DNA of 64,000 bases from Phycisphaerae bacterium. GTDB lineage: Bacteria > Planctomycetota > Phycisphaerae > UBA1845 > UTPLA1. The stretch is taken from positions 248,001-312,000 of the forward strand of contig DATEMU010000012.1 of assembly GCA_035275405.1 (NCBI GenBank), read 5' to 3'. The position numbers and the translations under genes are program-made. The notes beneath the pieces are model-generated. The model worked only from the letters and a program-made list of their open reading frames with translations, searched no databases and was not told the origin of the DNA. Of this stretch, positions 785 to 31,463 are shown one piece after another (within the stretch, counting starts at the first letter, position 1; every line of letters starts with the position of its first letter).

Positions 785-1621
785 TTAGCATCGACGAATA
801 TTGAACAGGTCGTAGGTCAGCCATCCCCGGCGGAGCATTCGTTCGACGGCACACAGGTAGAAGAATCTCCGGCGGTATCCGCGAGCCGCCGACCATCCGG
901 CCCGGCTGATTTCGGCCAGCCCGTCGCGAAGCGAATCCGCGGATTGTCGCGACACATCTTCCTGTCTTTCCAGGTGCAAACCGGCGGCGCGGAATGCATC
1001 CGCGTATTGTTCCGGCGACCAGAGTTTCGCGTGGGTGCTGAACTGCGTGGGCAGGTGATTGAGGAGGCCCAGGACGGCAAAAAGCGTCTTGCGGCGCGTG
1101 CAGATATCTCCCAGGCACAACGTCCCGCCGGGCTTGAGGATTCGACGGCACTCGCGAATGAAGGCCGGCTTGTCTTCATAATGCAGCGCGGACTCAAGAT
1201 TGAAGATCACGTCGACCGACGCGTCGTGAATGGGCAGGCGAACGGCGTCGCCCTGGAGAAAGATCGGTCGCCGGGACCTTTGTGACCATCGCGCCTCCGC
1301 CTCACGAACGCTTGCCACGCAATATTCAATACCGATCAGGCGCGCCGGCCGGTAGCGTTCAAAGATCCAACCACTGGGACCGCCGATTCCGCAGCCGACA
1401 TCGACGACGGTGCTTTCGGGGCCGATGGGGACCATGCCCAGGAGCCGCCAGACGAGATCCTTCTGGTGCTGGTCGAACGAGCCGCGACCGACGGCCTCGG
1501 CATAGCCAGCGTTATAACCCAGCAGGCCCGTCGCCTTGGACAGGCGCAGGTTTGGTTGGTAGAAAACCTCCAGGTTTCGCTGAGAAAGGAGCCGCGAATC
1601 ACCGTGCAAGTGCGCCGTCAT
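785..1621 (-). CDS. class I SAM-dependent methyltransferase
   Basis: The 278-residue protein has the Rossmann-type SAM-binding core. Motif I, VVDVGCGIGGPSG, lies at residues 72-84. An acidic residue ends strand beta2 (LIGIEY). The motif-IV-like stretch DVIFNLESALHYEDK is near residue 140, and a post-I segment CRRILKPGGTLCLGD follows, as in the Methyltransf_11 group. These match small-molecule methyltransferases such as the UbiE/sterol and natural-product types. The substrate cannot be read from the sequence. It is the last gene of a minus-strand run and lies 79 nt after the esterase gene, so cotranscription is possible but not certain. The ATG at 1621 is the natural start. Confidence 0.8.
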   Translation of the reverse strand: MTAHLHGDSRLLSQRNLEVFYQPNLRLSKATGLLGYNAGYAEAVGRGSFDQHQKDLVWRLLGMVPIGPESTVVDVGCGIGGPSGWIFERYRPARLIGIEYCVASVREAEARWSQRSRRPIFLQGDAVRLPIHDASVDVIFNLESALHYEDKPAFIRECRRILKPGGTLCLGDICTRRKTLFAVLGLLNHLPTQFSTHAKLWSPEQYADAFRAAGLHLERQEDVSRQSADSLRDGLAEISRAGWSAARGYRRRFFYLCAVERMLRRGWLTYDLFNIRRC

Positions 1622-1700
1622 GTCTTACCGCTCCGTCCAACCCGGGCCGGCCCGCGCTCACCATTAGCGCCGTCCTATTGTAGCAACCCCCTACGCCGGC

Positions 1701-3212
1701 TCAAGGAGTTTGTCGGCGGGCCGGTTGCGTCTCCGGTAACGCGACGCAATTGCTCATTTCCCGCAACATGGCCCGAAATGGCGGTGAAAAGAGGATCGTG
1801 CCGTGGTCCTTGCCCGGTTCCATAAACACACGCGCATCGCTGCCGAGTTTGGCCAACGCTTCCTTTAGACGCTGGGTGGCTCCTTCGAGGTAGAAATTAT
1901 CTTCCTCGCCCATGATCACAGTAATTTTTCCCGCCAGCCTGGGGCCGACCGTGGGCCATTCGCGCTGGAGCTTGTCCACGATGTCGAAACGTCGCCAGGC
2001 CCTGACGACATCGGCGTCGATCTTTCCCGTCTTTCGATCCCAGAGCCGAAGAGGCCTGCCGTCCTTGCCGCGCGGGCCGAAGACCGCCTCAAAGGAGTGC
2101 AGTTGACCGCCGGGTCCGATGACGTCCTCCATCCGCGCAAAGTCCTTGAGGAGCAGCCGGACCTTGCCGTCTTCGCGCATGATCGGGCGCGGCTGTCCCT
2201 TCGCGTCGTTGAAAAAATTGGAGGCCGGGTCATAGAGATCGATCCCCGAGAAATCGTGAAAGTTCACCGAATCCGGCGAGGTGGACCACACCCCGCCGAA
2301 ATAGTCCGGGTAAGTAATCTGCAGCCACAGGCTGCTCCAGCCGCCCGATGAATGTCCGGTCAAGAGCCGCGCCTTCGGTTCGGGGATGAGCCGGAATTCC
2401 TTCTCCAGATGCGGGATCAGTTCCTCGACCAGCGCGGCGCCCCACGGGCCGTTGTTGTCCGAGTCGGCATAGACGTGATGGCCCAGCGGGCACACCCCGT
2501 CGAGACCGATCCGTACGAAGGGCTCCTTCGATATCCCCAGCACTTGGGCATACATCGCCGCTCCGCGATGGTCGGCGCCGAAGCCGGGAATGACGTAGAT
2601 CGCATTGAACCGGCGTTGGGGCTCTTTTTCATACACCTCCGGCAAGACCACCACCGCCCGCAAAAAGATATCGCGCCCATGAAAACTCGAGAGAAGTTTG
2701 CTCTTAAGCCGGAGCTCCTTTGCCAGCGGAAGGTTCATCTCCGATTTGCGGGACGCCACAATTTGATTGATGCGGAGGGGCACGACGCCCGACGTCGCGG
2801 GATCGAGTTTGCGCTTGGCCGGCTTACTGTATAAATTGCCCTCGGCCGTGCCGGAATGGGGCACATCGGGGTTGGTGTGCAGAACCGCCTGGATCGCGTA
2901 ACGCCCTTTGGGGAGCTCGCGGAGGGGGAAGGGAAAACCGTCCGGGTTGGTAATATGAAGCACCTCGCCCGGTTTCCAGTCACGTACCTCCTGGCCAAAG
3001 ACGGGTTGCCGGCTGAGCCACGAGTGCGAAGCGCGCGGCTCGCCGCTGAGCTTGTCCGACAGGAAGAGGATGATCCGGCCGGTGAACGGCGTAGAGCGGA
3101 CGGCGGGATCAAATTGAACGGCGAATTCCAACGGCTTCGCCGGAGTGGGCTCCGCGCTCGCCGGGGCGCTCCAACAGAGCAGTAACAGCAGCAAAGCGAG
3201 CCGTCTGGTCAT
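1701..3212 (-). CDS. secreted esterase, enterochelin-esterase-like alpha/beta hydrolase
   Basis: The protein has 503 residues and a clear signal peptide (hydrophobic run LALLLLLLCWSAPASA, cleavage near residue 20). The C-terminal half is a putative-esterase alpha/beta hydrolase: the nucleophile elbow is GHSSGGWSS, and a late GKDHGTILF supplies the probable catalytic His. The N-terminal ~200 residues form a separate beta-rich region with the phrase RFNAIYVIPGFGADHRG at the domain junction. This layout resembles Fes/esterase-D-like proteins with an N-terminal sandwich domain. Its start overlaps the stop of the upstream ligase gene by four bases (ATGA), so translation is probably coupled. A role in removing acyl groups from surface glycans or glycoproteins is inferred from that coupling only. 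Confidence 0.75.
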   Translation of the reverse strand: MTRRLALLLLLLCWSAPASAEPTPAKPLEFAVQFDPAVRSTPFTGRIILFLSDKLSGEPRASHSWLSRQPVFGQEVRDWKPGEVLHITNPDGFPFPLRELPKGRYAIQAVLHTNPDVPHSGTAEGNLYSKPAKRKLDPATSGVVPLRINQIVASRKSEMNLPLAKELRLKSKLLSSFHGRDIFLRAVVVLPEVYEKEPQRRFNAIYVIPGFGADHRGAAMYAQVLGISKEPFVRIGLDGVCPLGHHVYADSDNNGPWGAALVEELIPHLEKEFRLIPEPKARLLTGHSSGGWSSLWLQITYPDYFGGVWSTSPDSVNFHDFSGIDLYDPASNFFNDAKGQPRPIMREDGKVRLLLKDFARMEDVIGPGGQLHSFEAVFGPRGKDGRPLRLWDRKTGKIDADVVRAWRRFDIVDKLQREWPTVGPRLAGKITVIMGEEDNFYLEGATQRLKEALAKLGSDARVFMEPGKDHGTILFSPPFRAMLREMSNCVALPETQPARRQTP

Positions 3213-5905
3213 TTGGACTCCTGCGGTTGGACGGCCAAAAAGCGTTGTGCGATCCGGGCGACCCGCAGAAACTCGGGCGGCCGCCGTTCCTCAGGCGTTT
3301 CCCGGTACGTTTGGATCAGCTCCACGGCGATCCGCCCCAGTACGGCGTCGACGGCTTCCTGCGTAGGTTGGGAGAGGCTCCAGCCGATTCGCACTTGGGC
3401 CGACCGGGCGTCACCCGTGGCGATCAGGTGCAATTTCGCCGAAAAAAGAAGCAACTGGGACAATTCCTCGGTTCGCGAAGCCACCACGGCCGCCCCCAGT
3501 TCAGATGGTTTGCCCTTGTCATCGATATCACCGGCGATGCCCACGCGTACCGATTCTTCCGCTTCGACGATTCTCTTGAAGGCCTCCGCATATTGCTGCG
3601 GATCGGCGTCGAAAAGGAGCCGCGCCGCGCCATACCAGGCGTCGGCCACGGCGGGCAGGGGTCGGGCAACCGGCGAATTCGAGTCATCCAATCGCTGATA
3701 GGCCTCGGCGGCCAGTCGCTGAAGCTCGGCGGCCTCGGCGAAGCGTTTCAATGAAGCGAAGCGGAGCGCCTCGACGCGCAAGACTTCCGGCGCGAGCGGA
3801 TCCTTCCAGTCTTTTTCGGATGGCTTGGTAACATCTTCCTTGGCCAGTTCGACGCGTGTGGGCCACTGACCGATTCCCTCCTGCGTTCCGAGCGAGCGGG
3901 TGGCCGGGCCGACCAGCCATCGGCTCATCGCCCCGCTGCGCAGACCTCGGCAGACGGCCTCGAGGTTTTCCACCGGTCCGCGGCCGGCGATATTAGTGAG
4001 CAGAACGTTAGCCTGGGTGTCGTACGGATTGACGTCGCGGAGGTAAACATCGAGCGTTGCGACGGCGGCCTGCGTGTCGCCAGTGCTATTCTGCGCCTCG
4101 GCGAGCCGAAAGCCGCTGTCAAGGTAACCGGGGCTGGCGCGAACCAGTTCGCGCCACGTCGCCACGGCCTTCTCGCCCCAGTACCGGGTCATTTCCGTCT
4201 CACCGGTGGTATCTTCCGGACGCCGCAGTGCCGGCGGCACTCGGGAGCTGCGCAACAGATTGGCCTGCACCGTTCCGAGATCGAAGCGCGTGGACAGCCA
4301 TCGACTCGTGCCAGAGCGGCGTGTCGCCCGTTCAAGCCTTTCGGCGGCCGTTGCCGCGTCCTGATTCATCAGTGCACGACCCCCTGCGTGCAGAACAGCA
4401 GTGCGGAAATCATTCGCCACGACGGCGAGAATTGCGACGGCGACGACCGCGGCCGCGATGCGGACAGCTTTTGACGCCGGAGCCGATCGCGGTGTGACGC
4501 GCGCATCCATGGCCCCGCGACTAACGGCCAGCGTCAATCCCAGCAGCGTCCAATACCAACCCTGAAGAATCGGATGCCGCAGATTGACGCTGCTCGCCTC
4601 CGAGACGCAGACCACCACCACGCCTGCGATCAAGGCGAGCACCACCGTTCGCTCCGCCCCTTTTGTCCGACTCCAGCGCCGGGCACCGGCGAAGATCACG
4701 CCAATCGGCAGGGCGAGGTAAAACAATCCCCCGGGCAGTCCCAGTTCAAACGCGGCCTGGAGCCATTCGTTGTGGCCTTCCGCATCGAGGTTGCCGTGCA
4801 GGACTTTCGGCTGTTCGGCGCGCTGTCGGGCCAGAGCCGTCATCGCCGTCGGCATGAATTGATCGGGTCCCACGCCCCAGAGTGGATTGCGCGAGAGGGA
4901 ATCCAGCATCAGCTTCCAATAAGTCGCGCGGATCTTCAGAGGCACGCTCACGGCGGCCTCGGGGCTCCGCGCCTGATCGCGGACGTACCACCCGGCAGCC
5001 GTCAGTCCGACGAGCACTGCGGCGCTCAATGCAACGCGATTCATCTTGCCGGAGTACTGCATCCATAGGACCAGACCGCCCGCCGCCCCCACGCCGACGA
5101 CCAGCCCCAGCCAGGCCCCCCGCCTCCCCGCGAAAAACAGCAAGGCGAGCGAACACACCAGGACCACGACGGCCAGGACGATGGCGAGTAGGGAAGGAGA
5201 ATTCGATCGACCGGCATGCCCGGCTTGTTCGACGATTTTTCTGTTTGCGCGGCGCTGGAGTATCGCGCCGAACAGCCAAACGATCGCGATACTGCTCCAC
5301 AAGGCGCCGAGGGACGCGGTCAGCGTGATCGGACCGACGGGCAGTTGAAAATACGCCTCGCCAAGTTCCTGGCGATGTATGATGGAAAGGACCGCCCCCG
5401 CCGCTGCTACGATCCCAGCGGCAAATATTGACCACCGAACGTGTGCCCACGTTTCGATTCGAGATAGAACAATCGCCCACCCCATCCCGCAGGTCGTCCA
5501 GAAGATCCAGCCGCGCGAGGATTCCCACGATCCGTTCTTCCATGCCGACGCACAGGCCAATACCAGCGTCGTCAGGGCGAGCGCTTCAAACCACCAGGCG
5601 GACAATCCGCTCATCGGCCCCCTGAACGTGTCGCCCCGAAGCAAGGTAATGAGCCCCAGGCACAACGCTAGCCCGACCGGCACGGCATATTCCCGAAGAT
5701 CTGTCAATTGTGTCAGCGCGATGGGGGCCGTTAGCAATCGATCCACGCCCAGCGGAAACGATGGCAAGCCGGGGACTTCGCATAGGAGAAGCGTGCAGGC
5801 AAAAAGGACTATGCCGACGACGATCGCGACGAAACCGGAGAATGGCGCGCGCGGCGCGGGCACTTCGGGTAGCGGTACCGGTCTAGCTGAGCGGTGTTTG
5901 CTCAT
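3209..5905 (-). CDS. O-antigen ligase/O-oligosaccharyltransferase-like membrane protein with TPR domain, copy 2
   Basis: The chosen ATG (5905) gives 898 residues, exactly the length of the upstream paralogue, and lies 16 nt after that gene's stop. The frame continues upstream to 6001, but that stretch overlaps the paralogue. The N-terminal half has about ten hydrophobic helices and the Wzy_C signature GHNEWLQAAFELGLPG near residue 375, preceded by LWGVGPDQF. The C-terminal ~380 residues are helical and TPR-like (RLAEAQNSTGDTQAAVATLD). Wzy_C proteins ligate or polymerise undecaprenyl-linked glycans; members beside pilus genes are often protein O-oligosaccharyltransferases. It shares near-identical stretches with its neighbour, such as QLPVGPITLTASLGALW. 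Substrate unknown. Confidence 0.8.
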   Translation of the reverse strand: MSKHRSARPVPLPEVPAPRAPFSGFVAIVVGIVLFACTLLLCEVPGLPSFPLGVDRLLTAPIALTQLTDLREYAVPVGLALCLGLITLLRGDTFRGPMSGLSAWWFEALALTTLVLACASAWKNGSWESSRGWIFWTTCGMGWAIVLSRIETWAHVRWSIFAAGIVAAAGAVLSIIHRQELGEAYFQLPVGPITLTASLGALWSSIAIVWLFGAILQRRANRKIVEQAGHAGRSNSPSLLAIVLAVVVLVCSLALLFFAGRRGAWLGLVVGVGAAGGLVLWMQYSGKMNRVALSAAVLVGLTAAGWYVRDQARSPEAAVSVPLKIRATYWKLMLDSLSRNPLWGVGPDQFMPTAMTALARQRAEQPKVLHGNLDAEGHNEWLQAAFELGLPGGLFYLALPIGVIFAGARRWSRTKGAERTVVLALIAGVVVVCVSEASSVNLRHPILQGWYWTLLGLTLAVSRGAMDARVTPRSAPASKAVRIAAAVVAVAILAVVANDFRTAVLHAGGRALMNQDAATAAERLERATRRSGTSRWLSTRFDLGTVQANLLRSSRVPPALRRPEDTTGETEMTRYWGEKAVATWRELVRASPGYLDSGFRLAEAQNSTGDTQAAVATLDVYLRDVNPYDTQANVLLTNIAGRGPVENLEAVCRGLRSGAMSRWLVGPATRSLGTQEGIGQWPTRVELAKEDVTKPSEKDWKDPLAPEVLRVEALRFASLKRFAEAAELQRLAAEAYQRLDDSNSPVARPLPAVADAWYGAARLLFDADPQQYAEAFKRIVEAEESVRVGIAGDIDDKGKPSELGAAVVASRTEELSQLLLFSAKLHLIATGDARSAQVRIGWSLSQPTQEAVDAVLGRIAVELIQTYRETPEERRPPEFLRVARIAQRFLAVQPQESK

Positions 5906-22671: not shown

Positions 22672-23817
22672 TCAGGCTCCGGCTCCGTAAAACTCCAGGA
22701 TGGTGGCAGCGACCCGCTCCTGCTGCGCGGTCGTTAACTCGGGATAAATCGGCAGGGCCAGCACCTCGCGCGCCGCCTGTTCCGAGTGAGGCAGTTGGCC
22801 CGGCTTTCCACCGAGAGCGGCGAAACATTCCTGCAAGTGCAGCGGGACGGGATAGTAGACCTCCGTTCCGATGCCGCGCTCCTGCAGATGCTGCCGCAGC
22901 TCATCGCGTCGGGGGACACGGATACAGTATTGGTTGTAGATGGAAACGTTGCCTTCTGCGATGACCGGCGTCTTGATAAGGGTATGGGCGAACCGGTCGT
23001 TGTAACGGCGGGCGTTTTCGGCTCGCTTGCGCGACCAGCCGTCCAGGTGCCGCAGCTTGACGCGGACCACCGCCGCCTGCATCGCGTCCAGCCGGAAATT
23101 CCCGCCGATCCACTTGTGGTAGTACTTCGGCTGCGCCCCGTGGTCTCGGAAGATCCGCAGCCGCTCCGCGAGCTTCTCATCGTTCGTGCAGATCATGCCT
23201 CCGTCGCCGAAGGCCCCGAGGTTCTTGCTGGGAAAGAAAGACAACGTTCCCAGCCGGCCCATGCTGCACGCCTTTTTCCCGTGATGCGTCGCCCCAATCG
23301 ACTGCGCCGCGTCCTCCATGACCGGAATCGACCGGCGATTGGCTAATTCCATGATCTCGCCCATCGCCGCGCACTGTCCGAAGAGATGCACCGGAATGAT
23401 GAGCCTGGTTTTATTCGTGATCGCCGGCTCGATCAGCGCCGCCGTCGCGTTGAATGTCCCCGGATCGACATCGATAAAGACCGGCTTGGCCCCAAGGCGG
23501 CTGACGCAGCCCGCTGTCGCGAAAAAGGTGAACGTCGGCACGATCACCTCATCGCCCGGCCCGATCCCCAAGGCCATCATTCCGCACAAGAGCGCATCCG
23601 TCCCGCTGCTCATGCCGATGCCATAGTTGCATCCGCAATAGGCGGCGACCGCCTCCTCGCACGCGACCACTTCCGGCCCGCCGATAAACCGCTGCGATTC
23701 GCAGACGCCATCGATCGCCGTACGAATCTCCTCGCGGATCGTGTCGTACTGCGCGCGCAGGTCGAGTAACGGAATCGGCGTTTGTGTGCCGGGCGGTGAA
23801 GACGCCAGTCGAGTCAT
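22672..23817 (-). CDS. DegT/DnrJ/EryC1/StrS sugar aminotransferase
   Basis: The 381-residue PLP enzyme shows the family landmarks: PLLDLRAQYDTIREEI at the N-terminus, GMSSGTDALLCGMMALGIGPG, the cofactor Asp in PVMEDAAQSIGATHHGK and the Schiff-base Lys in LSFFPSKNLGAFGDGGMI. A C-terminal AVYYPVPLH-like phrase (TEVYYPVPLHLQECF) completes it. These enzymes transaminate nucleotide-linked keto-sugars to amino-sugars. It is the first gene of the sugar cluster, followed after four bases by the WecA-like transferase. The exact sugar cannot be read. Confidence 0.92.
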   Translation of the reverse strand: MTRLASSPPGTQTPIPLLDLRAQYDTIREEIRTAIDGVCESQRFIGGPEVVACEEAVAAYCGCNYGIGMSSGTDALLCGMMALGIGPGDEVIVPTFTFFATAGCVSRLGAKPVFIDVDPGTFNATAALIEPAITNKTRLIIPVHLFGQCAAMGEIMELANRRSIPVMEDAAQSIGATHHGKKACSMGRLGTLSFFPSKNLGAFGDGGMICTNDEKLAERLRIFRDHGAQPKYYHKWIGGNFRLDAMQAAVVRVKLRHLDGWSRKRAENARRYNDRFAHTLIKTPVIAEGNVSIYNQYCIRVPRRDELRQHLQERGIGTEVYYPVPLHLQECFAALGGKPGQLPHSEQAAREVLALPIYPELTTAQQERVAATILEFYGAGA

Positions 23818-23859: not shown

Positions 23860-24384
23860 CTACGCGCTCGCGGCTAGATAGCGCTTGCCCAGATGTTGCA
23901 GGAGATCGCGGACCGACACCATCGCCAGCGGATGGCCTTCCTTGACGATGGGTATATGCCGGAACCCCCCGACGTCCATGCGGTTCAGCGCCCAGGCAAT
24001 CGTCGCCTCCGGCGGAAGCGTCTCGGGATCGGGCGTCATGTAATCGCGGACGGGCGACGACTTGAGTTCATTGAATTTATCGCCGATTTTCAGCAGCAGG
24101 TCCCGCTCGCTGAAGATCCCCACGAGCTTGTCATTGGATACGACCAGTACGCAGCCCACCCCGCCCGCCACCAGGCGATCGACCACCTCCTGCAGTGTCG
24201 TCGTCGGGCTGACGGCGATCGGGGGAACCGCCATCACCTGCGACAGGTCCTCGCAGACGACGGTGCTTTCCCAGCCGACATCGGCCTTCGCGGCGGGGAG
24301 TTCGACCGCAATGAGCGACTGACCGCATTTCTCGCAGTCATCCGCGCCGTCGATATTCCGGTGTTTGCAGGCGGGACAGATCAC
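23860..24384 (-). CDS. zinc-ribbon protein with two CBS domains
   Basis: The first ~24 residues form a ribbon (CPACKHRNIDGADDCEKCG). Two CBS motifs follow: residues ~50-105 (VSPTTTLQEVVDRLVAGG, GIFSERDLLLKI) and ~115-170 (LPPEATIAWALNRMDVGGFRHIPIV, SVRDLLQHLG). CBS pairs bind adenosine nucleotides and act as energy sensors on enzymes or channels. The gene starts three bases after the korB stop, so it is surely cotranscribed with the 2-oxoacid:ferredoxin oxidoreductase. Control of that enzyme by adenylate charge is inferred. Total length 174 residues. Confidence 0.85.
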   Translation of the reverse strand: MICPACKHRNIDGADDCEKCGQSLIAVELPAAKADVGWESTVVCEDLSQVMAVPPIAVSPTTTLQEVVDRLVAGGVGCVLVVSNDKLVGIFSERDLLLKIGDKFNELKSSPVRDYMTPDPETLPPEATIAWALNRMDVGGFRHIPIVKEGHPLAMVSVRDLLQHLGKRYLAASA

Positions 24385-24387
24385 GCG

Positions 24388-25407
24388 TTATTCCACGACC
24401 CAGGTATCCCCGGAATTCAGCAGTTTTTCCAGCGAGCCCTTGCCCTGCTTTTCGACGGCCGTCTTGATCTGAGCATGCACGCCTTCCTCAAAGAGCGGGG
24501 CATCCACGCAGCGGAGCACGCCCATCGGCTCGGGAAACTCGGGGTAGCGCATGCGGCTGAGCATGAAGGCCAGACTCGGCTCGGCCATCTTTTCGTCGTG
24601 GAACAGGAGGTCGTCTTCCTTGATGTCCCCGCCGAGCTGCACGACCTCCGGCTCCATGTTCTTCAGGCGGATGCCCTTGTCGCGGTTCTTGCCGAAGATC
24701 AGGGGCTTGCCATGCTCCAGGTAGAGCGTCGTGTCCTCCTTGGTCTCCTTGCCGCTGGCATATTCGAACGCCCCATCGTTGAAGACGTTGCAGTTTTGAT
24801 AAATCTCGACAAAGGACGTGCCCTTGTGCCCGGCGGCCCGCAGAAGCGTTTCGGACAGGTGCTTTACGTTGACATCCATCGTCCGGGCGACAAAAGTCGC
24901 CTCCGCGCCGATGGCGACGGAGAGGGGGTGCAACGGGTTATCGACTGACCCGAAGGGCGTGGACTTCGTCTTCTTTCCCAGTTCGGAGGTCGGTGAATAC
25001 TGCCCCTTGGTCAATCCGTAAATCCGGTTGTTAAAGAGCAGCACCTTGATATCCGGATTGCGCCGGATCAGGTGAACGAGGTGATTGCCGCCGATGGACA
25101 GACCGTCGCCGTCGCCTGTCGCCACCCACACGGACAGTTCGGGATTGGCGACCTTTACGCCCGTCGCGACGGCTGGCGCGCGGCCGTGAATGCTGTGAAA
25201 GCCGTAGGTGCTCAGGTAATACGGAAACCGGCTCGAACAGCCGATCCCCGATATGCACACGAGTTTCTCGCGCGGAATGCCCAGATCCGGCAGGATCTTC
25301 TTGACCTGCGCGAGGATCGAATAATCCCCGCACCCCGGGCACCAGCGGACATCCTGGTCGCTGGCAAAATCTTTCGCTGTCAGTTGCGGTAACGTTGATG
25401 TAGACAT
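24388..25407 (-). CDS. korB: 2-oxoacid:ferredoxin oxidoreductase, beta subunit
   Basis: The 339-residue thiamine-diphosphate subunit opens with the conserved WCPGCGDYSILAQV and carries CISGIGCSSRFPYY, HSIHGRAPAVATGVK and the TPP/Mg2+ motif ATGDGDGLSIGGNHL, with NNRIYGLTKGQYSPTS downstream. This is the pattern of 2-oxoglutarate:ferredoxin oxidoreductase (KorB/OorB) rather than pyruvate synthase. The complex oxidatively decarboxylates a 2-oxoacid with ferredoxin as acceptor, or runs in reverse in the reductive TCA cycle. It follows korA by four bases. The E2 fragment at the window start suggests that dehydrogenase-type 2-oxoacid oxidation also occurs in this organism. Confidence 0.92.
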   Translation of the reverse strand: MSTSTLPQLTAKDFASDQDVRWCPGCGDYSILAQVKKILPDLGIPREKLVCISGIGCSSRFPYYLSTYGFHSIHGRAPAVATGVKVANPELSVWVATGDGDGLSIGGNHLVHLIRRNPDIKVLLFNNRIYGLTKGQYSPTSELGKKTKSTPFGSVDNPLHPLSVAIGAEATFVARTMDVNVKHLSETLLRAAGHKGTSFVEIYQNCNVFNDGAFEYASGKETKEDTTLYLEHGKPLIFGKNRDKGIRLKNMEPEVVQLGGDIKEDDLLFHDEKMAEPSLAFMLSRMRYPEFPEPMGVLRCVDAPLFEEGVHAQIKTAVEKQGKGSLEKLLNSGDTWVVE

Positions 25408-25411
25408 TGCT

Positions 25412-27286
25412 CTATTTCTTCCCGTCTAGAACTTCCTGAATCTTCGCCTCAATCTCCGCGATCAGGAAGGGTTTTCCTTTGATCTTGTTCAAACCGATCG
25501 CATCCACGAGATAATTCGCGCGGATGAGCATCCGAAGTTGCCCCATGTTCAACTCGGGGATGAGCACTCTCTTGTAGTTCGCCATGATCTCGCCGAGGTT
25601 GCGCGGGAACGGGTTGAGATACCTCAGGTGCGCCGCCGCGACGCTGTATCCCTGCTTTTGCACGCGCTCCACGGCGCTCTTGATCGCCCCCGCCGTTCCG
25701 CCCCAACCCAAAACGAGCAGATCGCCCTTCTCCGGCCCCATGACCGTCTGCGGCGGCACATCCAGCGCAATCGCCGCCACTTTCTTGGCCCGCAACCGCA
25801 CCATCCGCTCATGGTTCTCGGGGTCGTAGCAAACGTTGCCGGTGATGTCCTGTTTCTCGAGGCCGCCGATGCGATGCTCCAGGCCCGGCGTGCCCGGCAG
25901 CGCCCACGGTCGCGCGAAATATTCGTTCCGCTCGTACGGATGGAACGGATGCCCGTTCGTCCCGGTCGGGTGCTTGACCTCGATCCTGGGCAGCTTGGCA
26001 ACGTCGGGGATCGCCCACGGCTCCTCGCCGTTCGCGACGTAGCCATCGGAAAGGAGGATGACCGGCGTCATGAATTGCAGCGCAATGCGAACGGCCTCTA
26101 CGGCCACGTCGAAACAGTCCGCCGGCGACGAGGCCGCGATCACGCAAACGGGACATTCTCCGTTTCGCCCGCAGATCGCCTGCAAAAGGTCAGCCTGCTC
26201 CGTCTTCGTCGGCAGTCCCGTGCTCGGTCCGCCGCGTTGCACGTCGATGATGATGAGCGGCAGTTCGGTCATGACCGCCAGGCCGATCGCCTCGGCCTTC
26301 AGCGCGAGTCCCGGCCCGCTCGTGCCCGTCACGCCGATGTCCCCGGTGAAGGAAGCGCCGATCGCGCTGGTCACCGCGGCGATTTCATCTTCCGCCTGAA
26401 ACGTTTTGACGCGATAGTTTTTATATCGCGCCAACGTATGCAGAATGTCGCTGGCCGGCGTGATCGGATAGCTGCCGTAGAACAAATCCTTGCCCGCCAG
26501 GTTCGCCGCCGCGATGCAGCCGATCGCCACGGCCTCGTTGCCGGAGATCCGCCGGTATTTTCCCGCGGGGAGCTTCGCCTTCGGGACGGTGAAGCTGCTT
26601 GCGAAAATCTCGCACGTCTCACCGTAAAAGTATCCGGCTTTGAGAACCGATTTATTTGCCTCGGCGACGACTGGGTTCTTGCCGAATTTATCCTCGATCC
26701 ACTTGATCGTCGGCTCCATCGGCCGCCCGTAGAGCCAGTAGATCACGCCCAGCGCAAAGAAGTTCTTGCAACGGTCGACATCCTTCGACCCCAGGCCCGA
26801 ATCCTTCAGCGCCGTCGCATTGAGCTTCCCGATCGGGATGCGGTGCACCTTGTATTTGGAGAGGCTTCCGTCATCGAGCGGATTCTGTTCGTAGCCCGCC
26901 TTCTTCAGGTCCGTCTGGCCAAAGTCGTCTTCATTGACGATGACCATCCCGCCCTCGCGGACATCGCCGACGTTGGTCTTCAACGCGGCTGGGTTGAACG
27001 CCACCAGCGCATCCACCATGTCGCCCGGCGTATGCACGTCGTGGCTGCTGAAATTGACCTGAAACCCGCTGACGCCCGCCAGCGAACCGGCCGGTGCGCG
27101 AATCTCCGCCGGATAATCCGGAAACGTGCTCACGTCGTTCCCAAAGATCACCGTGCTCCGCGTGAACTGCATCCCCGCGAGCTGCATCCCATCTCCGGAA
27201 TCGCCCGCGAAACGAACCGTCACTTCATCCACACTCTGCACCGGCTTCTTTGCCGCCGGCTTCGTCATTGTCTCTACTGTGCTCAT
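25412..27286 (-). CDS. korA: 2-oxoacid:ferredoxin oxidoreductase, fused gamma-alpha subunit
   Basis: In 624 residues the gamma domain (about 25-215, VRFAGDSGDGMQLAGMQF) is fused to the alpha/pyrimidine-binding domain (from ~250, FYGSYPITPASDILHTLARY). A C-terminal transketolase-like domain contains LLVLGWGGTAGAIKSAVERV. GPGLALKAEAIGLAVMTELPLIIIDVQRGGPSTG is split by short conserved loops typical of KorA. It pairs with KorB to form the active dimer. The start is ATG at 27286; a 65-nt gap with a CCACTGA-type heptamer array separates it from the upstream CBS gene, so all four genes can still be one operon. Confidence 0.93.
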   Translation of the reverse strand: MSTVETMTKPAAKKPVQSVDEVTVRFAGDSGDGMQLAGMQFTRSTVIFGNDVSTFPDYPAEIRAPAGSLAGVSGFQVNFSSHDVHTPGDMVDALVAFNPAALKTNVGDVREGGMVIVNEDDFGQTDLKKAGYEQNPLDDGSLSKYKVHRIPIGKLNATALKDSGLGSKDVDRCKNFFALGVIYWLYGRPMEPTIKWIEDKFGKNPVVAEANKSVLKAGYFYGETCEIFASSFTVPKAKLPAGKYRRISGNEAVAIGCIAAANLAGKDLFYGSYPITPASDILHTLARYKNYRVKTFQAEDEIAAVTSAIGASFTGDIGVTGTSGPGLALKAEAIGLAVMTELPLIIIDVQRGGPSTGLPTKTEQADLLQAICGRNGECPVCVIAASSPADCFDVAVEAVRIALQFMTPVILLSDGYVANGEEPWAIPDVAKLPRIEVKHPTGTNGHPFHPYERNEYFARPWALPGTPGLEHRIGGLEKQDITGNVCYDPENHERMVRLRAKKVAAIALDVPPQTVMGPEKGDLLVLGWGGTAGAIKSAVERVQKQGYSVAAAHLRYLNPFPRNLGEIMANYKRVLIPELNMGQLRMLIRANYLVDAIGLNKIKGKPFLIAEIEAKIQEVLDGKK

Positions 27287-27320
27287 CGTTTGTTGTATTC
27301 CTTACTCGGTCTTTCCCCTG

Positions 27321-27348
27321 GCCACTGGCCACGAACCACCGGCCACTC
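27321..27348 (-). repeat. CCACTGA-type heptanucleotide tandem array
   Basis: Four heptamers on the plus strand: GCCACTG, GCCACGA, ACCACCG, GCCACTC. On the coding (minus) strand the array begins three bases after the stop codon of the CBS gene and fills the gap before korA. Confidence 0.75.
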
Positions 27349-27351
27349 TCT

Positions 27352-27849
27352 TCAAGCCCCCTCTGCCTCCGCATCCAGCCGCTCCGGTCGCGGCGGCAGG
27401 TTGTATACAACGGTCGGAAAGTACTCCACCATGTAGTGAACTATTTCCCGGACCGATATTCGCCCCAGTACACGCCCCCGCTTGTCCACCACCGGCAGGT
27501 GCCGATAGCCGCGATCCCGCATTCCCTGGATCACCGTACCAATCGTCTCGTCCGTCGTGGTAGTGGCCGGGCTGGGTGACATGACCGTAGAGATCATAGC
27601 TCCGAAATCCACCCCCGTACCGATAACCCGCTTGAGCAGGTCCCGCTCCGTAAAGATCCCCACCAGCTTGTCATCGTCGACGACGCACAAGCAGCCGGTC
27701 CGTCCCTGCTGCATCGCCGTCACGGCCTCGCGAACGGTCGCGCGCGGGCCCACCGTCACAGCCGGCTTGACGTCCAGGCGGGCCACCGTGTCTTCCCAGA
27801 GATTTTGCTTGAGCGGCACGCGTGAGCCTCGCTGGCGGTAGTCTAACAT
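27352..27849 (-). CDS. two-CBS-domain protein
   Basis: The 165-residue protein is a CBS pair without another domain: VGPRATVREAVTAMQQGRTGCL with GIFTERDLLKRVIG (first motif) and TDETIGTVIQGMRDRGYRHLPV with GRISVREIVHYMVEYFP (second). A Pro/Glu-rich tail follows. It is upstream of korA and the second CBS protein of the operon; unlike the downstream one it has no zinc ribbon. The likely role is sensing AMP/ATP for the oxidoreductase, inferred from position. Confidence 0.85.
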   Translation of the reverse strand: MLDYRQRGSRVPLKQNLWEDTVARLDVKPAVTVGPRATVREAVTAMQQGRTGCLCVVDDDKLVGIFTERDLLKRVIGTGVDFGAMISTVMSPSPATTTTDETIGTVIQGMRDRGYRHLPVVDKRGRVLGRISVREIVHYMVEYFPTVVYNLPPRPERLDAEAEGA

Positions 27850-28191: not shown

Positions 28192-29649
28192 CTAGGGGCA
28201 TCCAAACTCGCCCATCAGCATGTCGACGAAGGCATCGGAGTCGGCGAGGTCAATGGCGTTGTAGGAGGCCGCGAGATCGGCACAGGGACTGGCGGAAACG
28301 TTTCCGAGCAGGATGTCGACCAGGGCGGCGATGTCCCGTCCGCTGACGGTGCCGTCGTTGTTGACATCGCCGGGACAGGTGCAGGAATTGGGGACGAGCG
28401 CGCTGAAGTTGAGCGACGTGGGTGTGCCGGGCTTGAACAGGCCGACCTTGACCAGGCCGGCAAAGGGTGGGCGATCGGCATCGAAGCGGAAGTTGTAGGT
28501 GGTTCCCCAGCGGAGGGCGTTGGCGTTGACGTTGGTCGTGTAGGAATCGGTGGCCCAGGTCAGGTTGCCGCCGCCCAAGACCGGCGTCCAATCGGCGGAG
28601 CTGTAGGGTTCGCCGCTGTGGTAGTCGACGTCGTGAAACCCGATGTTTGACAGGTTCGTTCCGACAGCAAAGGGAACATAAAAGAAGCCGGCCGAGCGGT
28701 CGGAATTCATGTTGTACAGGGCATATTCGTAGTGCCACGTCGTGTCGGGCACGATCTCGGTGACCTTGTATCCCAGAATGAATCGGCCTTCCGAGGGCAC
28801 GAACCCGTCAACCAGTGTGACTCCGCTCTCGACAGTCGGCCAAGCCTCGATCGCCGACTCTTGTTGGTGGGTGGTGCCGCCAAACGCGAGGTTCCAGCCG
28901 CCGCCGCTGAACGTGCCCACCGTGGTCGGCCGCCAGGAGGTGTTGTTGAACCTCTCATTATGGTTCTCGTCGGTCGGGATGTAATGGACGTCGCAGTAGT
29001 ACGACGCCCCGGGGTTCTGCGCCGGGTCGAGATCGGCGTTGTGGATCTGGAGGCGCTTATAGATGGCGTTGCCAGTCTGGCCCTCGGTCGGAAATGGATA
29101 GGAAAAAACGCCAGTATAAGCGTTCACGTCCGACTTGGGCCCGAGATCGGATTGATTACCGTTCAGACCTGAGCCATAGGTGTCCGTACAGCCGACGGTC
29201 AGCCAGTCGCAATTGCCGTCCGGGCTGCACGATCCACAATTCGGCCCGGACGCGTCCGCGGCGCAGAAGCCGTGCTTGAGCCAGCTCATCCCGATCTGCT
29301 CAAATCTGCCGGCGCCATCAACGACCTTGTATCGATACATGTTTTGACCGATTACCGGATGCTGATTGTTCGTATCCAACCAGATCGCTGAGGTCGTTCC
29401 GATGTTGCAGGAGACCGTAGTTACTGCGTAGCCAGTTATGTCGCCGACCGTGCCGTACTTCTGGAAGCCTGAGCCGATAGTCGAGACGATGACGTCGGGG
29501 CCGGTGCCGCGGGAAGGCGCGGTGAAAAGAAGTGTCGCTAAAAGCGAGAACGATATGGTTTTTGGAAGCCTTGATCCGGCCAATAAAGCCTTGAAACACG
29601 AATGACTTACAAGACACCCCGCGAATCCATCAGTTGAAAATCGCATCAT
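28192..29649 (-). CDS. secreted protein with C-terminal dockerin-like domain (paralogue of 29985 gene)
   Basis: The 485-residue protein has a long N-terminal signal region (hydrophobic ISFSLLATLLFTA). A ~370-residue body contains recurring phrases such as NQHPVIGQNMYRYKVVDG, QIGMSWLKHGFCA and LSNIGFHDVDYHSGEP. The tail is dockerin-like, with a Ca2+-loop DVNNDGTVSGRDIAALVD and a second half ending MLMGEFGCP. GGAAGGAG lies just upstream of the tandem ATGs at 29649/29646. Body and layout match the divergent gene at 29985. These look like extracellular surface or matrix proteins; dockerin-like ends imply assembly onto a partner. No enzyme motif is recognised. Confidence 0.75.
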   Translation of the reverse strand: MMRFSTDGFAGCLVSHSCFKALLAGSRLPKTISFSLLATLLFTAPSRGTGPDVIVSTIGSGFQKYGTVGDITGYAVTTVSCNIGTTSAIWLDTNNQHPVIGQNMYRYKVVDGAGRFEQIGMSWLKHGFCAADASGPNCGSCSPDGNCDWLTVGCTDTYGSGLNGNQSDLGPKSDVNAYTGVFSYPFPTEGQTGNAIYKRLQIHNADLDPAQNPGASYYCDVHYIPTDENHNERFNNTSWRPTTVGTFSGGGWNLAFGGTTHQQESAIEAWPTVESGVTLVDGFVPSEGRFILGYKVTEIVPDTTWHYEYALYNMNSDRSAGFFYVPFAVGTNLSNIGFHDVDYHSGEPYSSADWTPVLGGGNLTWATDSYTTNVNANALRWGTTYNFRFDADRPPFAGLVKVGLFKPGTPTSLNFSALVPNSCTCPGDVNNDGTVSGRDIAALVDILLGNVSASPCADLAASYNAIDLADSDAFVDMLMGEFGCP

Positions 29650-29984: not shown

Positions 29985-31463
29985 ATGAAAGCTGTCACTG
30001 GTCGCGCAATCGCGTTTATTTTGGTATCGATGTTCGTAACCCTTGGTGGGATCCAACACGCTCATGCGCAGCCGTGTGGTGTGGTGACCGGTCCCGACGT
30101 AACCGTTGGGGATTTGGCGACTCATCCGACGGGAGAGCCATTTCTTTCGAATTTTCCCAGCTCTGGCGGTCTTGAGGCCTTCTCGGTCGCGACTTATTCC
30201 TGCAATGTTGGCACCGTTTGGCTTAACTGGCTTCAATCGCCGAATGCAAACCACCCCGTCATCGGACAGAACTTCTTTCGCCTCCAGAGAGACCCGGCCG
30301 GCTACAACCGCTACGAGCAGCTCGGGCAAAGTTGGCTCAAGCATGGGTTCTTTGCCCTAAGCAACATTCTCTGCTGCACGAGTTGCAGCCCCACCGACGG
30401 GACTCACCTGGGTGTGGGCTGTTCGGACCCTTACAACTCCTCGCGAAACGCAAGCCAGACACAACTGGGACCCAAGTGGCAGGTCAACGCCACAACGGGC
30501 GTGCATCTCCATCCAGTGGCCAATCCGGCGCCGGCGACCGGCGGCGTTGTCCGGCTCTTGCAAATCGATATCAACGATTTGGAGGTCTCCGATGGGACGC
30601 AGCCCATTACCGACCAGCCTCGTTACTACGTTGAAGGCCAATATATTGCCGCGGACGACGCCGCAGCGGGCAATAAGAACAATAATGCCAGCTATCGGCC
30701 GATTGCCGTTACCGGCAGTGGATCGGCATGGACGTTCGCGAGGATCCCCGCCCTCCCGACCGTGCGCGAAAAGCCCGGGATTCGGGCTTGGAGGGCGTTC
30801 GATCCGACCGTCTCCGAAACCGACATCATCACGCCGGAAGACGGCGGCCTCAGCGCACTCGTGATTGTCGCGGGGCAGGCCACGGACCTCGGTGATGGCG
30901 TTTATCATTACGAAATTGCGATTCAAAACCTGAACTCAGAACGGTCCATCGGCTCTGTCAGCGTTCCGGTGTCACCTTATGCGACAGTGACCAACATCGG
31001 GTTCCACGACGTGGACTACCATGACGGGGACGGCAGCGGCAACATCACGACGGACGGCACGGACTGGCCCGCCGTGGTGTCCGGCGGAGCGGTCGCATGG
31101 AGCTATGTGGATGTCTCGCCGGCAAACGATAACGCCTTGCGCTGGGGCACGTTATACAACTACCGCTTCGATTGCGATCTGCCGCCGACGACCGCAAACA
31201 TCACCCTCGGACAATACCGAGTCGCCAATAGCCTTACCGCCAAGACGCAAATCCCCACCGCCGTGACCTGCCTTCGGGGCGATCTCAACGACGACTTATC
31301 GGTCGACGGCCTCGATGTTCAGCGTTTCGCCGATCGGCTCGTGAATGGCGGGGCGTCGCCGAAAGAGAAGTGTGCTGGGGACCTCGAGTTAACAGCGGAT
31401 TTCGGCATCGACGCCGACGACATCGAACCGTTTGCAGAATGCGTTCTAAGCAACGGTTGTTAA
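29985..31463 (+). CDS. secreted protein with C-terminal dockerin-like domain (paralogue of 28192 gene)
   Basis: The 492-residue protein has a signal peptide (IAFILVSMFVTLGGIQHAHA). The body is collinear with the divergent gene: NANHPVIGQNFFRLQRDPAG, EQLGQSWLKHGFFALS, PITDQPRYYVEGQYIAADD, VTNIGFHDVDYHDGDG and NALRWGTLYNYRFD. The C-terminus is dockerin-like (RGDLNDDLSVDGLDVQRFAD and FGIDADDIEPFAECV). An AAGGGA site precedes the ATG. Function unknown; probably extracellular. Confidence 0.75.
   Translation: MKAVTGRAIAFILVSMFVTLGGIQHAHAQPCGVVTGPDVTVGDLATHPTGEPFLSNFPSSGGLEAFSVATYSCNVGTVWLNWLQSPNANHPVIGQNFFRLQRDPAGYNRYEQLGQSWLKHGFFALSNILCCTSCSPTDGTHLGVGCSDPYNSSRNASQTQLGPKWQVNATTGVHLHPVANPAPATGGVVRLLQIDINDLEVSDGTQPITDQPRYYVEGQYIAADDAAAGNKNNNASYRPIAVTGSGSAWTFARIPALPTVREKPGIRAWRAFDPTVSETDIITPEDGGLSALVIVAGQATDLGDGVYHYEIAIQNLNSERSIGSVSVPVSPYATVTNIGFHDVDYHDGDGSGNITTDGTDWPAVVSGGAVAWSYVDVSPANDNALRWGTLYNYRFDCDLPPTTANITLGQYRVANSLTAKTQIPTAVTCLRGDLNDDLSVDGLDVQRFADRLVNGGASPKEKCAGDLELTADFGIDADDIEPFAECVLSNGC

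Follow-up and report, generated by a model that had tools for sequence, protein, structure and literature searches.

The window analyzed here is the whole 64,000-nucleotide stretch of Phycisphaerae DNA, and within it four minus-strand genes are packed into a compact cluster (Table 1). Based on the list of open reading frames, transcription proceeds from the gene for a CBS-pair protein with a conserved C-terminal tail (hereafter the tailed CBS protein), through korA and korB, to the gene for a second CBS-pair protein that carries a zinc-ribbon-like motif, with gaps of 65, 4 and 3 bp between successive genes. A sequence-only reading of the window had described this CBS/kor/kor/CBS arrangement, and the four open reading frames are present where it placed them; Pfam and NCBIfam assign the outer two to CBS pairs and the inner two to subunits of a 2-oxoacid oxidoreductase. 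The name that it gave to the operon, CBS-korB-korA-CBS, lists the correct genes, but in order of coordinate; korA is transcribed before korB. A gene for a DegT-type aminotransferase (22672-23817) starts on the same strand 42 bp past the zinc-ribbon CBS gene, and therefore the operon may extend further downstream. No promoter or terminator pattern at the locus rose above the shuffled background. Two divergent open reading frames, located at 28192-29649 (minus strand) and 29985-31463 (plus strand), are of similar length and are alike by eye, sharing for example IGFHDVDYH and RWGTxYNxRFD. The first shows a weak dockerin match below the Pfam cut-off, and the two frames suggest a duplicated pair of secreted proteins.

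Table 1. Genes and features of the kor locus, in order of transcription
Feature	Coordinates	Strand	Details	Basis
Tailed CBS-pair protein	27352..27849	-	165 aa; transcribed first; C-terminus ...YFPTVVYNLPPRPERLDAEAEGA	ORF list, Pfam, alignment, predicted structure
Conserved C-terminal tail end of tailed CBS protein	27352..27381	-	...EGA + stop	
korA, fused gamma-alpha subunit of 2-oxoacid:ferredoxin oxidoreductase (TIGR03710)	25412..27286	-	624 aa	Pfam, NCBIfam
korB, TPP-binding beta subunit	24388..25407	-	339 aa	Pfam, NCBIfam
Zinc-ribbon CBS-pair protein (C-x2-C-x10-C-x2-C, zinc-ribbon-like, N-terminal)	23860..24384	-	174 aa; GTG start	

The two central genes encode an enzyme of a known kind. 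KorA contains the Pfam domains POR, POR_N and PFOR_II and scores 668.4 bits against the NCBIfam model TIGR03710, over its cut-off of 482.75. KorB matches TPP_enzyme_C clearly over the Pfam cut-off and falls just under the NCBIfam cut-off for TIGR02177 (258.2 versus 261.9 bits). The nearest solved relatives are chain A of 6n2n for KorA and chain B for KorB, the Magnetococcus 2-oxoglutarate enzyme, and the catalytic subunits are placed with the KorAB/OAFO 2-oxoacid:ferredoxin oxidoreductases represented by TIGR03710 and 6n2n, KorA by its model score and KorB as a probable member. Compared to 6n2n, the window KorB extends further at its C-terminus (339 aa versus the 292 aa chain), a feature common to relatives that lack the CBS genes. 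Sequence searches of solved structures with all four window proteins returned no entry naming a CBS protein together with the KorAB family. Enzymes of this type occupy a reversible branch point at which oxidative and reductive TCA flux part. OGDH E1 is encoded in the window genome as well, so that KorAB would not be its sole route for 2-oxoglutarate, and given the presence of OGDH E1, a role for the locus as a switch between the NAD-linked and the ferredoxin-linked route would be natural.

Both outer proteins match the CBS domain at 93 bits each (Pfam cut-off 24), with two domains apiece. In an alignment of 34 rows, the tailed CBS proteins end in the form FPxxVxNLPP...(R)EG[GA]-COOH, an ending that is missing from the other standalone CBS proteins of the window genome. 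Matching the three C-terminal residues to a simple pattern identified 107 distinct frames with a tail-type ending over the fetched loci, including 53 with EGG, 29 with EGA and 13 with DGG; the tailed CBS protein of locus L207 ends in DSG and lies outside this pattern. It is important to point out that the GARGGRGGN codons specifying EGG or EGA resemble a ribosome-binding site, and at locus L021 they are located directly upstream of the korA ATG. A tail that is a mere by-product of a Shine-Dalgarno sequence was considered and rejected as a general explanation: the ending is retained where no gene follows, often with codons that do not make a ribosome site (such as TAC GGC GGA), and the tail is therefore conserved at the protein level.

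The AlphaFold prediction for the tailed protein is a Bateman fold with a mean pLDDT of 85.7 and a disordered tail. Its Foldseek matches are solved CBS pairs, several of them with AMP, ADP, ATP, SAM or ppGpp bound. The motif of the first nucleotide site, G-[IV]-[FIV]-[ST]-E-R-D, is found in 94 of the 107 tailed frames and in all 29 zinc-ribbon CBS frames. Conservation at the tailed protein's second site is poor in the 34-row alignment. The sequence-only reading had assigned an extra zinc ribbon to one of the CBS proteins. The four-cysteine motif can indeed be read in the sequence, and C-x2-C-x10-C-x2-C precedes the CBS pair in 10 of 14 aligned members of this type, but the Pfam DZR match of 19.7 bits is under the cut-off of 27.3, so the term zinc-ribbon-like is used with that reservation. 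Neither window CBS protein reaches the cut-off of any NCBIfam model, and the models matched by the 34 tailed members are generic CBS-bearing ones (cut-offs were compared for the first member only).

CBS domains are not rare in the window genome, where 26 matches are found in ~14 open frames. With an estimated total of ~4,700 genes, CBS genes would be expected to flank a given gene pair on both sides by chance about once in 1e5, and the CBS-kor-CBS arrangement is not due to chance. A first survey, in which genome contigs were scanned with KorA, yielded 80 loci, six of which have CBS genes beside kor. All four genes are present in the order of the window at L006, L008, L010 and L038; the remaining two are L021 and L025, and at L025 the contig ends inside korB. 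The nearest relatives, L005 and L007 (KorA 81 and 79% identical), have korAB, and no CBS match reaching the tail was found anywhere in their genomes. We then turned to a sample of 392 Planctomycetota genomes, 151 of which contain KorA at E 1e-100. Linkage was inspected at 130 loci (L001 and L085-L213), leaving out ~20 low-scoring korA genomes of the 151; for 29 of the 130 only 1.5 kb flanks were available, and several loci are truncated at contig ends.

Same-strand CBS genes adjoin korA at 30 of the 130 Planctomycetota loci, 18 of which have both CBS types and 12 a single tailed CBS gene, which either follows korB or precedes korA. Among the 18, the two CBS genes are separate and in window order at 14, one is fused to KorB at two (L199 and L205), and both are upstream at two (L188 and L200). 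Loci fetched later add further variants, with L288 and L289 arranged as CBS, korA and a KorB-CBS fusion, and L286 as korB followed by a tailed CBS gene. The other 100 loci show no adjoining CBS gene, although some are cut by contig ends. Given that L005, L007 and most Planctomycetota korAB loci are without adjoining CBS genes, the CBS pair is dispensable. Conservation of CBS genes beside kor in relatives was the test that the sequence-only reading had set for itself; in Planctomycetota the arrangement passes it in a recurrent, if patchy, manner, and in the two further phylum samples described below it does so strongly. Locus L284 (region about 1048-4666) has a single tailed CBS gene in divergent orientation to a neighboring split pair of KorA/PorA-like and KorB-like genes, a second pair of this kind, and next to a radical SAM gene, a hint that the tailed family may serve other 2-oxoacid oxidoreductases as well.

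The association can also be approached from the CBS side. In order to do this, genomes were searched with a profile of the tailed CBS protein (profile A1), which was built from kor-linked proteins and includes one row each from L038 and L021. In 237 genomes of Omnitrophota, the phylum of the L038 genome, profile A1 alone found 26 full-tail CBS genes, and every one of them adjoins korA; a second CBS match is present on the same contig at roughly korAB spacing in 22 cases. A third sample comprised 297 genomes from the phylum of the L021 genome, which is taken to be other than Planctomycetota because its genomes were new to the survey. Here 27 tailed CBS genes were found, 22 beside kor genes and five not. 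CBS-kor adjacency thus extends beyond Planctomycetota. Of 18 regions taken from these two samples, 15 contain all four genes in order, counting korA as present at L359 and L368, where it reads in two frames. In the other three, the second CBS is fused to KorB (L372), the region is cut by a contig end (L374), or the CBS pair occurs without kor (L365). The four-gene set therefore recurs in three groups of bacteria, namely Planctomycetota, Omnitrophota and the third phylum sample.

Back in Planctomycetota, full-tail CBS matches occur in at least 46 of the 392 genomes, at least 44 of which also have KorA (Fisher P = 3e-18, among the matches listed). These genome counts are lower bounds, as illustrated by L290/G307, which was found only through its partner CBS, and the korA-negative label hangs on the 1e-100 threshold. 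The 44 of 46 count is also partly circular, because profile A1 came from kor-linked proteins. With linked cases excluded, unlinked tailed CBS genes are found in 12 genomes with KorA and two without (Fisher P = 5e-5, again among the matches listed). This unlinked-only test, like the results from Omnitrophota and the third phylum, is much less circular.

Some of the unlinked copies form small operons of their own, in which a tailed CBS gene is directly followed by a second CBS gene (L271-L277, L290 and L365). Those of Planctomycetota (L271-L277 and L290) have korAB elsewhere in the genome; L365 belongs to the third phylum. An alternative enzyme partner shared by the orphan pairs was sought and none emerged, as the scanned neighbors vary by locus and include MutY-like, GDSL lipase, trypsin/3-keto-disaccharide hydrolase, ClpP and guanido phosphotransferase genes. 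Elsewhere, at L306 (2072-3470), the region upstream of the tailed CBS gene and korA contains another frame resembling korB (204 bits) and a fragment resembling korA, perhaps a tandem of two kor operons.

Fusion of a CBS pair to KorB was confirmed by Pfam at five loci (L021, which is truncated by a contig end, L199, L205, L288 and L289) and by reading frame at a sixth, L372. The fusions sit at the KorB C-terminus, at L021 it is the zinc-ribbon CBS that is joined to KorB, and in all six loci the tailed CBS remains a separate gene. Long frames that seemed to indicate KorB-CBS or KorA-CBS fusions at L140, L159, L164, L186, L358 and L359 were rejected, as they read the kor region out of frame. In a FastTree phylogeny of KorA with 176 rows, L021, L199, L288 and L289 fall in one six-row clade, whereas L205 is located elsewhere, indicating at least two separate fusion events (L372 is not in the tree). 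On the same tree the CBS-linked state changes at least 22 times and CBS-bearing rows are scattered across deep branches, a distribution that fits either an ancient association that was lost many times or one that was gained repeatedly, between which the tree does not choose. The correlation of CBS distances with KorA distances is modest to weak (Spearman 0.29), with none of 2000 permutations as high. Residue E169 of KorB is found in 35 of 37 CBS-linked and 38 of 121 unlinked sequences by raw count, and the region 281-285 also stood out, but both were dropped as neither was significant after pairing by phylogeny. In this test, which left out 13 rows with unlinked or truncated context, no residue of KorA or KorB convincingly tracks the presence of CBS.

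Taken together, a functional link between the CBS pair and KorAB is well supported. The adjacency survives rearrangement, CBS is fused to KorB, and the linkage is recovered when searching from the CBS side; therefore, a dedicated partner of KorAB is the best reading of the pair. Direct action on the enzyme is likely given the natural fusions, and on this genomic evidence the CBS pair is probably a dedicated, direct regulator of KorAB. CBS regulation of the kor enzyme, as the sequence-only reading had envisaged, is thus plausible from recurrent linkage and fusion. That reading had further suggested that the signal may be energy charge. The pair is probably a gate that answers to an adenine nucleotide, with AMP, ADP or ATP as the leading candidates; binding of these by the pair, to judge from the fold matches and the site motif, is a real prospect, if somewhat short of probable.

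A regulator of KorAB that responds to something else, such as c-di-AMP, SAM, NAD(H), CoA or succinyl-CoA, is possible but carries less weight with us. Some of the CBS pairs among the fold matches were solved with different ligands, SAM/methylthioadenosine in MJ0100 and ppGpp in IMPDH, and enzymes of the KorAB family use CoA as a substrate. Furthermore, 9 of 34 tailed CBS proteins weakly match the model for the c-di-AMP protein CbpB, and the window genome encodes a DAC-type c-di-AMP cyclase, so that c-di-AMP stays a candidate ligand. However, none of this is specific to any single alternative, and the window CBS proteins are far under the curated cut-offs of CbpB (NF041630; 29.2 versus 125 bits) and CcpN (NF053704; 41.3 versus 260 bits, aligned to profile positions 68-204 of 208 only).

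The zinc-ribbon CBS protein could conceivably be an electron-transfer or assembly subunit with a rubredoxin-like iron site and not a regulator at all, since its four cysteines could bind iron, its gene adjoins that of the Fe-S/TPP subunit KorB in the four-gene loci, and the related Ta0289, which joins a CBS pair to a zinc ribbon, can bind iron. We consider this improbable: 4 of 14 aligned members (L122, L137, L188 and L200) lack the cysteines, as do the CBS portions fused to KorB at L199 and L205, and relatives without CBS genes keep korAB without any such protein. Less probable again is that the CBS proteins control how the kor operon is expressed, by binding RNA or DNA; CBS pairs are known in transcription factors, CcpN among them, but Pfam and NCBIfam reveal no DNA-binding domain in either protein, and a CBS pair fused to KorB at six loci points to the enzyme. 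Finally, hitch-hiking neighbors in a conserved gene order with no functional tie would account for the absence of CBS genes from most Planctomycetota korA loci, but is very unlikely in view of adjacency kept while order is rearranged, repeated KorB-CBS fusions, 26 of 26 linkage in Omnitrophota, and unlinked tailed CBS genes that mostly occur in korA genomes.

Returning to the CBS pair as a direct regulator of KorAB, one can envisage how it might work. Based on fusions at the KorB C-terminus, the zinc-ribbon CBS protein would dock on KorB, and the tailed protein would form a Bateman-type dimer with this docked partner, so placed that the free and flexible tail at its C-terminus reaches the active-site channel or the ferredoxin site of the enzyme. 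An adenine nucleotide in the G-[IV]-[FIV]-[ST]-E-R-D site could then shift the pose of the CBS pair and so open or close KorAB, and gating of this kind would tie ferredoxin-linked 2-oxoacid oxidation or reductive carboxylation to the energy state. That the tailed CBS is never the one fused is as a plug with a free C-terminus would require. The complete model, a two-protein energy-charge switch in which the free -EG[GA]-COOH end inserts into KorAB and plugs it under nucleotide control, is nonetheless speculative and we consider it rather unlikely in this full form.

CBS-gated enzymes are already known as a kind, whereas we know of no small-molecule regulator subunit of a 2-oxoacid:ferredoxin oxidoreductase. 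The sequence-only reading likewise knew of no described regulator of this type, in agreement with our search of open-licence PMC text (titles and abstract starts), where no description of CBS proteins with these enzymes was found; nor do passages of PMC12016516, PMC2614490, PMC12628685 and PMC3111988 describe a CBS-KorAB regulator. The CBS pair, with its conserved free tail and its occasional fusion to the 2-oxoacid:ferredoxin oxidoreductase, is therefore probably an undescribed control device of that enzyme. If so, it would provide an allosteric handle on ferredoxin-linked carbon flow in Planctomycetota, Omnitrophota and the third phylum sample, and would give a function to two 'CBS domain-containing protein' families that lie outside the reach of every NCBIfam model at its cut-off.

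Several known systems resemble parts of this locus. Proteins of the Ta0289 type (1pvm, 2qh1 and 3ghd) are likewise small and unite a CBS pair with a zinc-ribbon-like motif, and in sequence searches of solved structures Ta0289 was matched by the tailed CBS protein and 3ghd by both CBS proteins. However, the ribbon of Ta0289 is C-terminal, whereas the kor-linked cysteines are N-terminal of the CBS pair, which sets the window protein apart from this type, and no connection between Ta0289 and kor genes was found. AcuB, with structures bound to ADP, AMP or Ap4A, is likewise a stand-alone CBS regulator and a fold match to the tailed protein, but it is a CBS pair plus an ACT domain; the window CBS proteins have no Pfam match to ACT at E 1 and are not members of AcuB. 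With the Bateman-regulated proteins IMPDH, AMPK gamma and MgtE, the kor-linked pair shares the Bateman fold, the canonical nucleotide-site motif and the expected gating by nucleotides. In contrast to these, the kor locus has two separate, dedicated CBS proteins for a TPP/Fe-S oxidoreductase, one of which ends in a conserved free EG[GA] tail.
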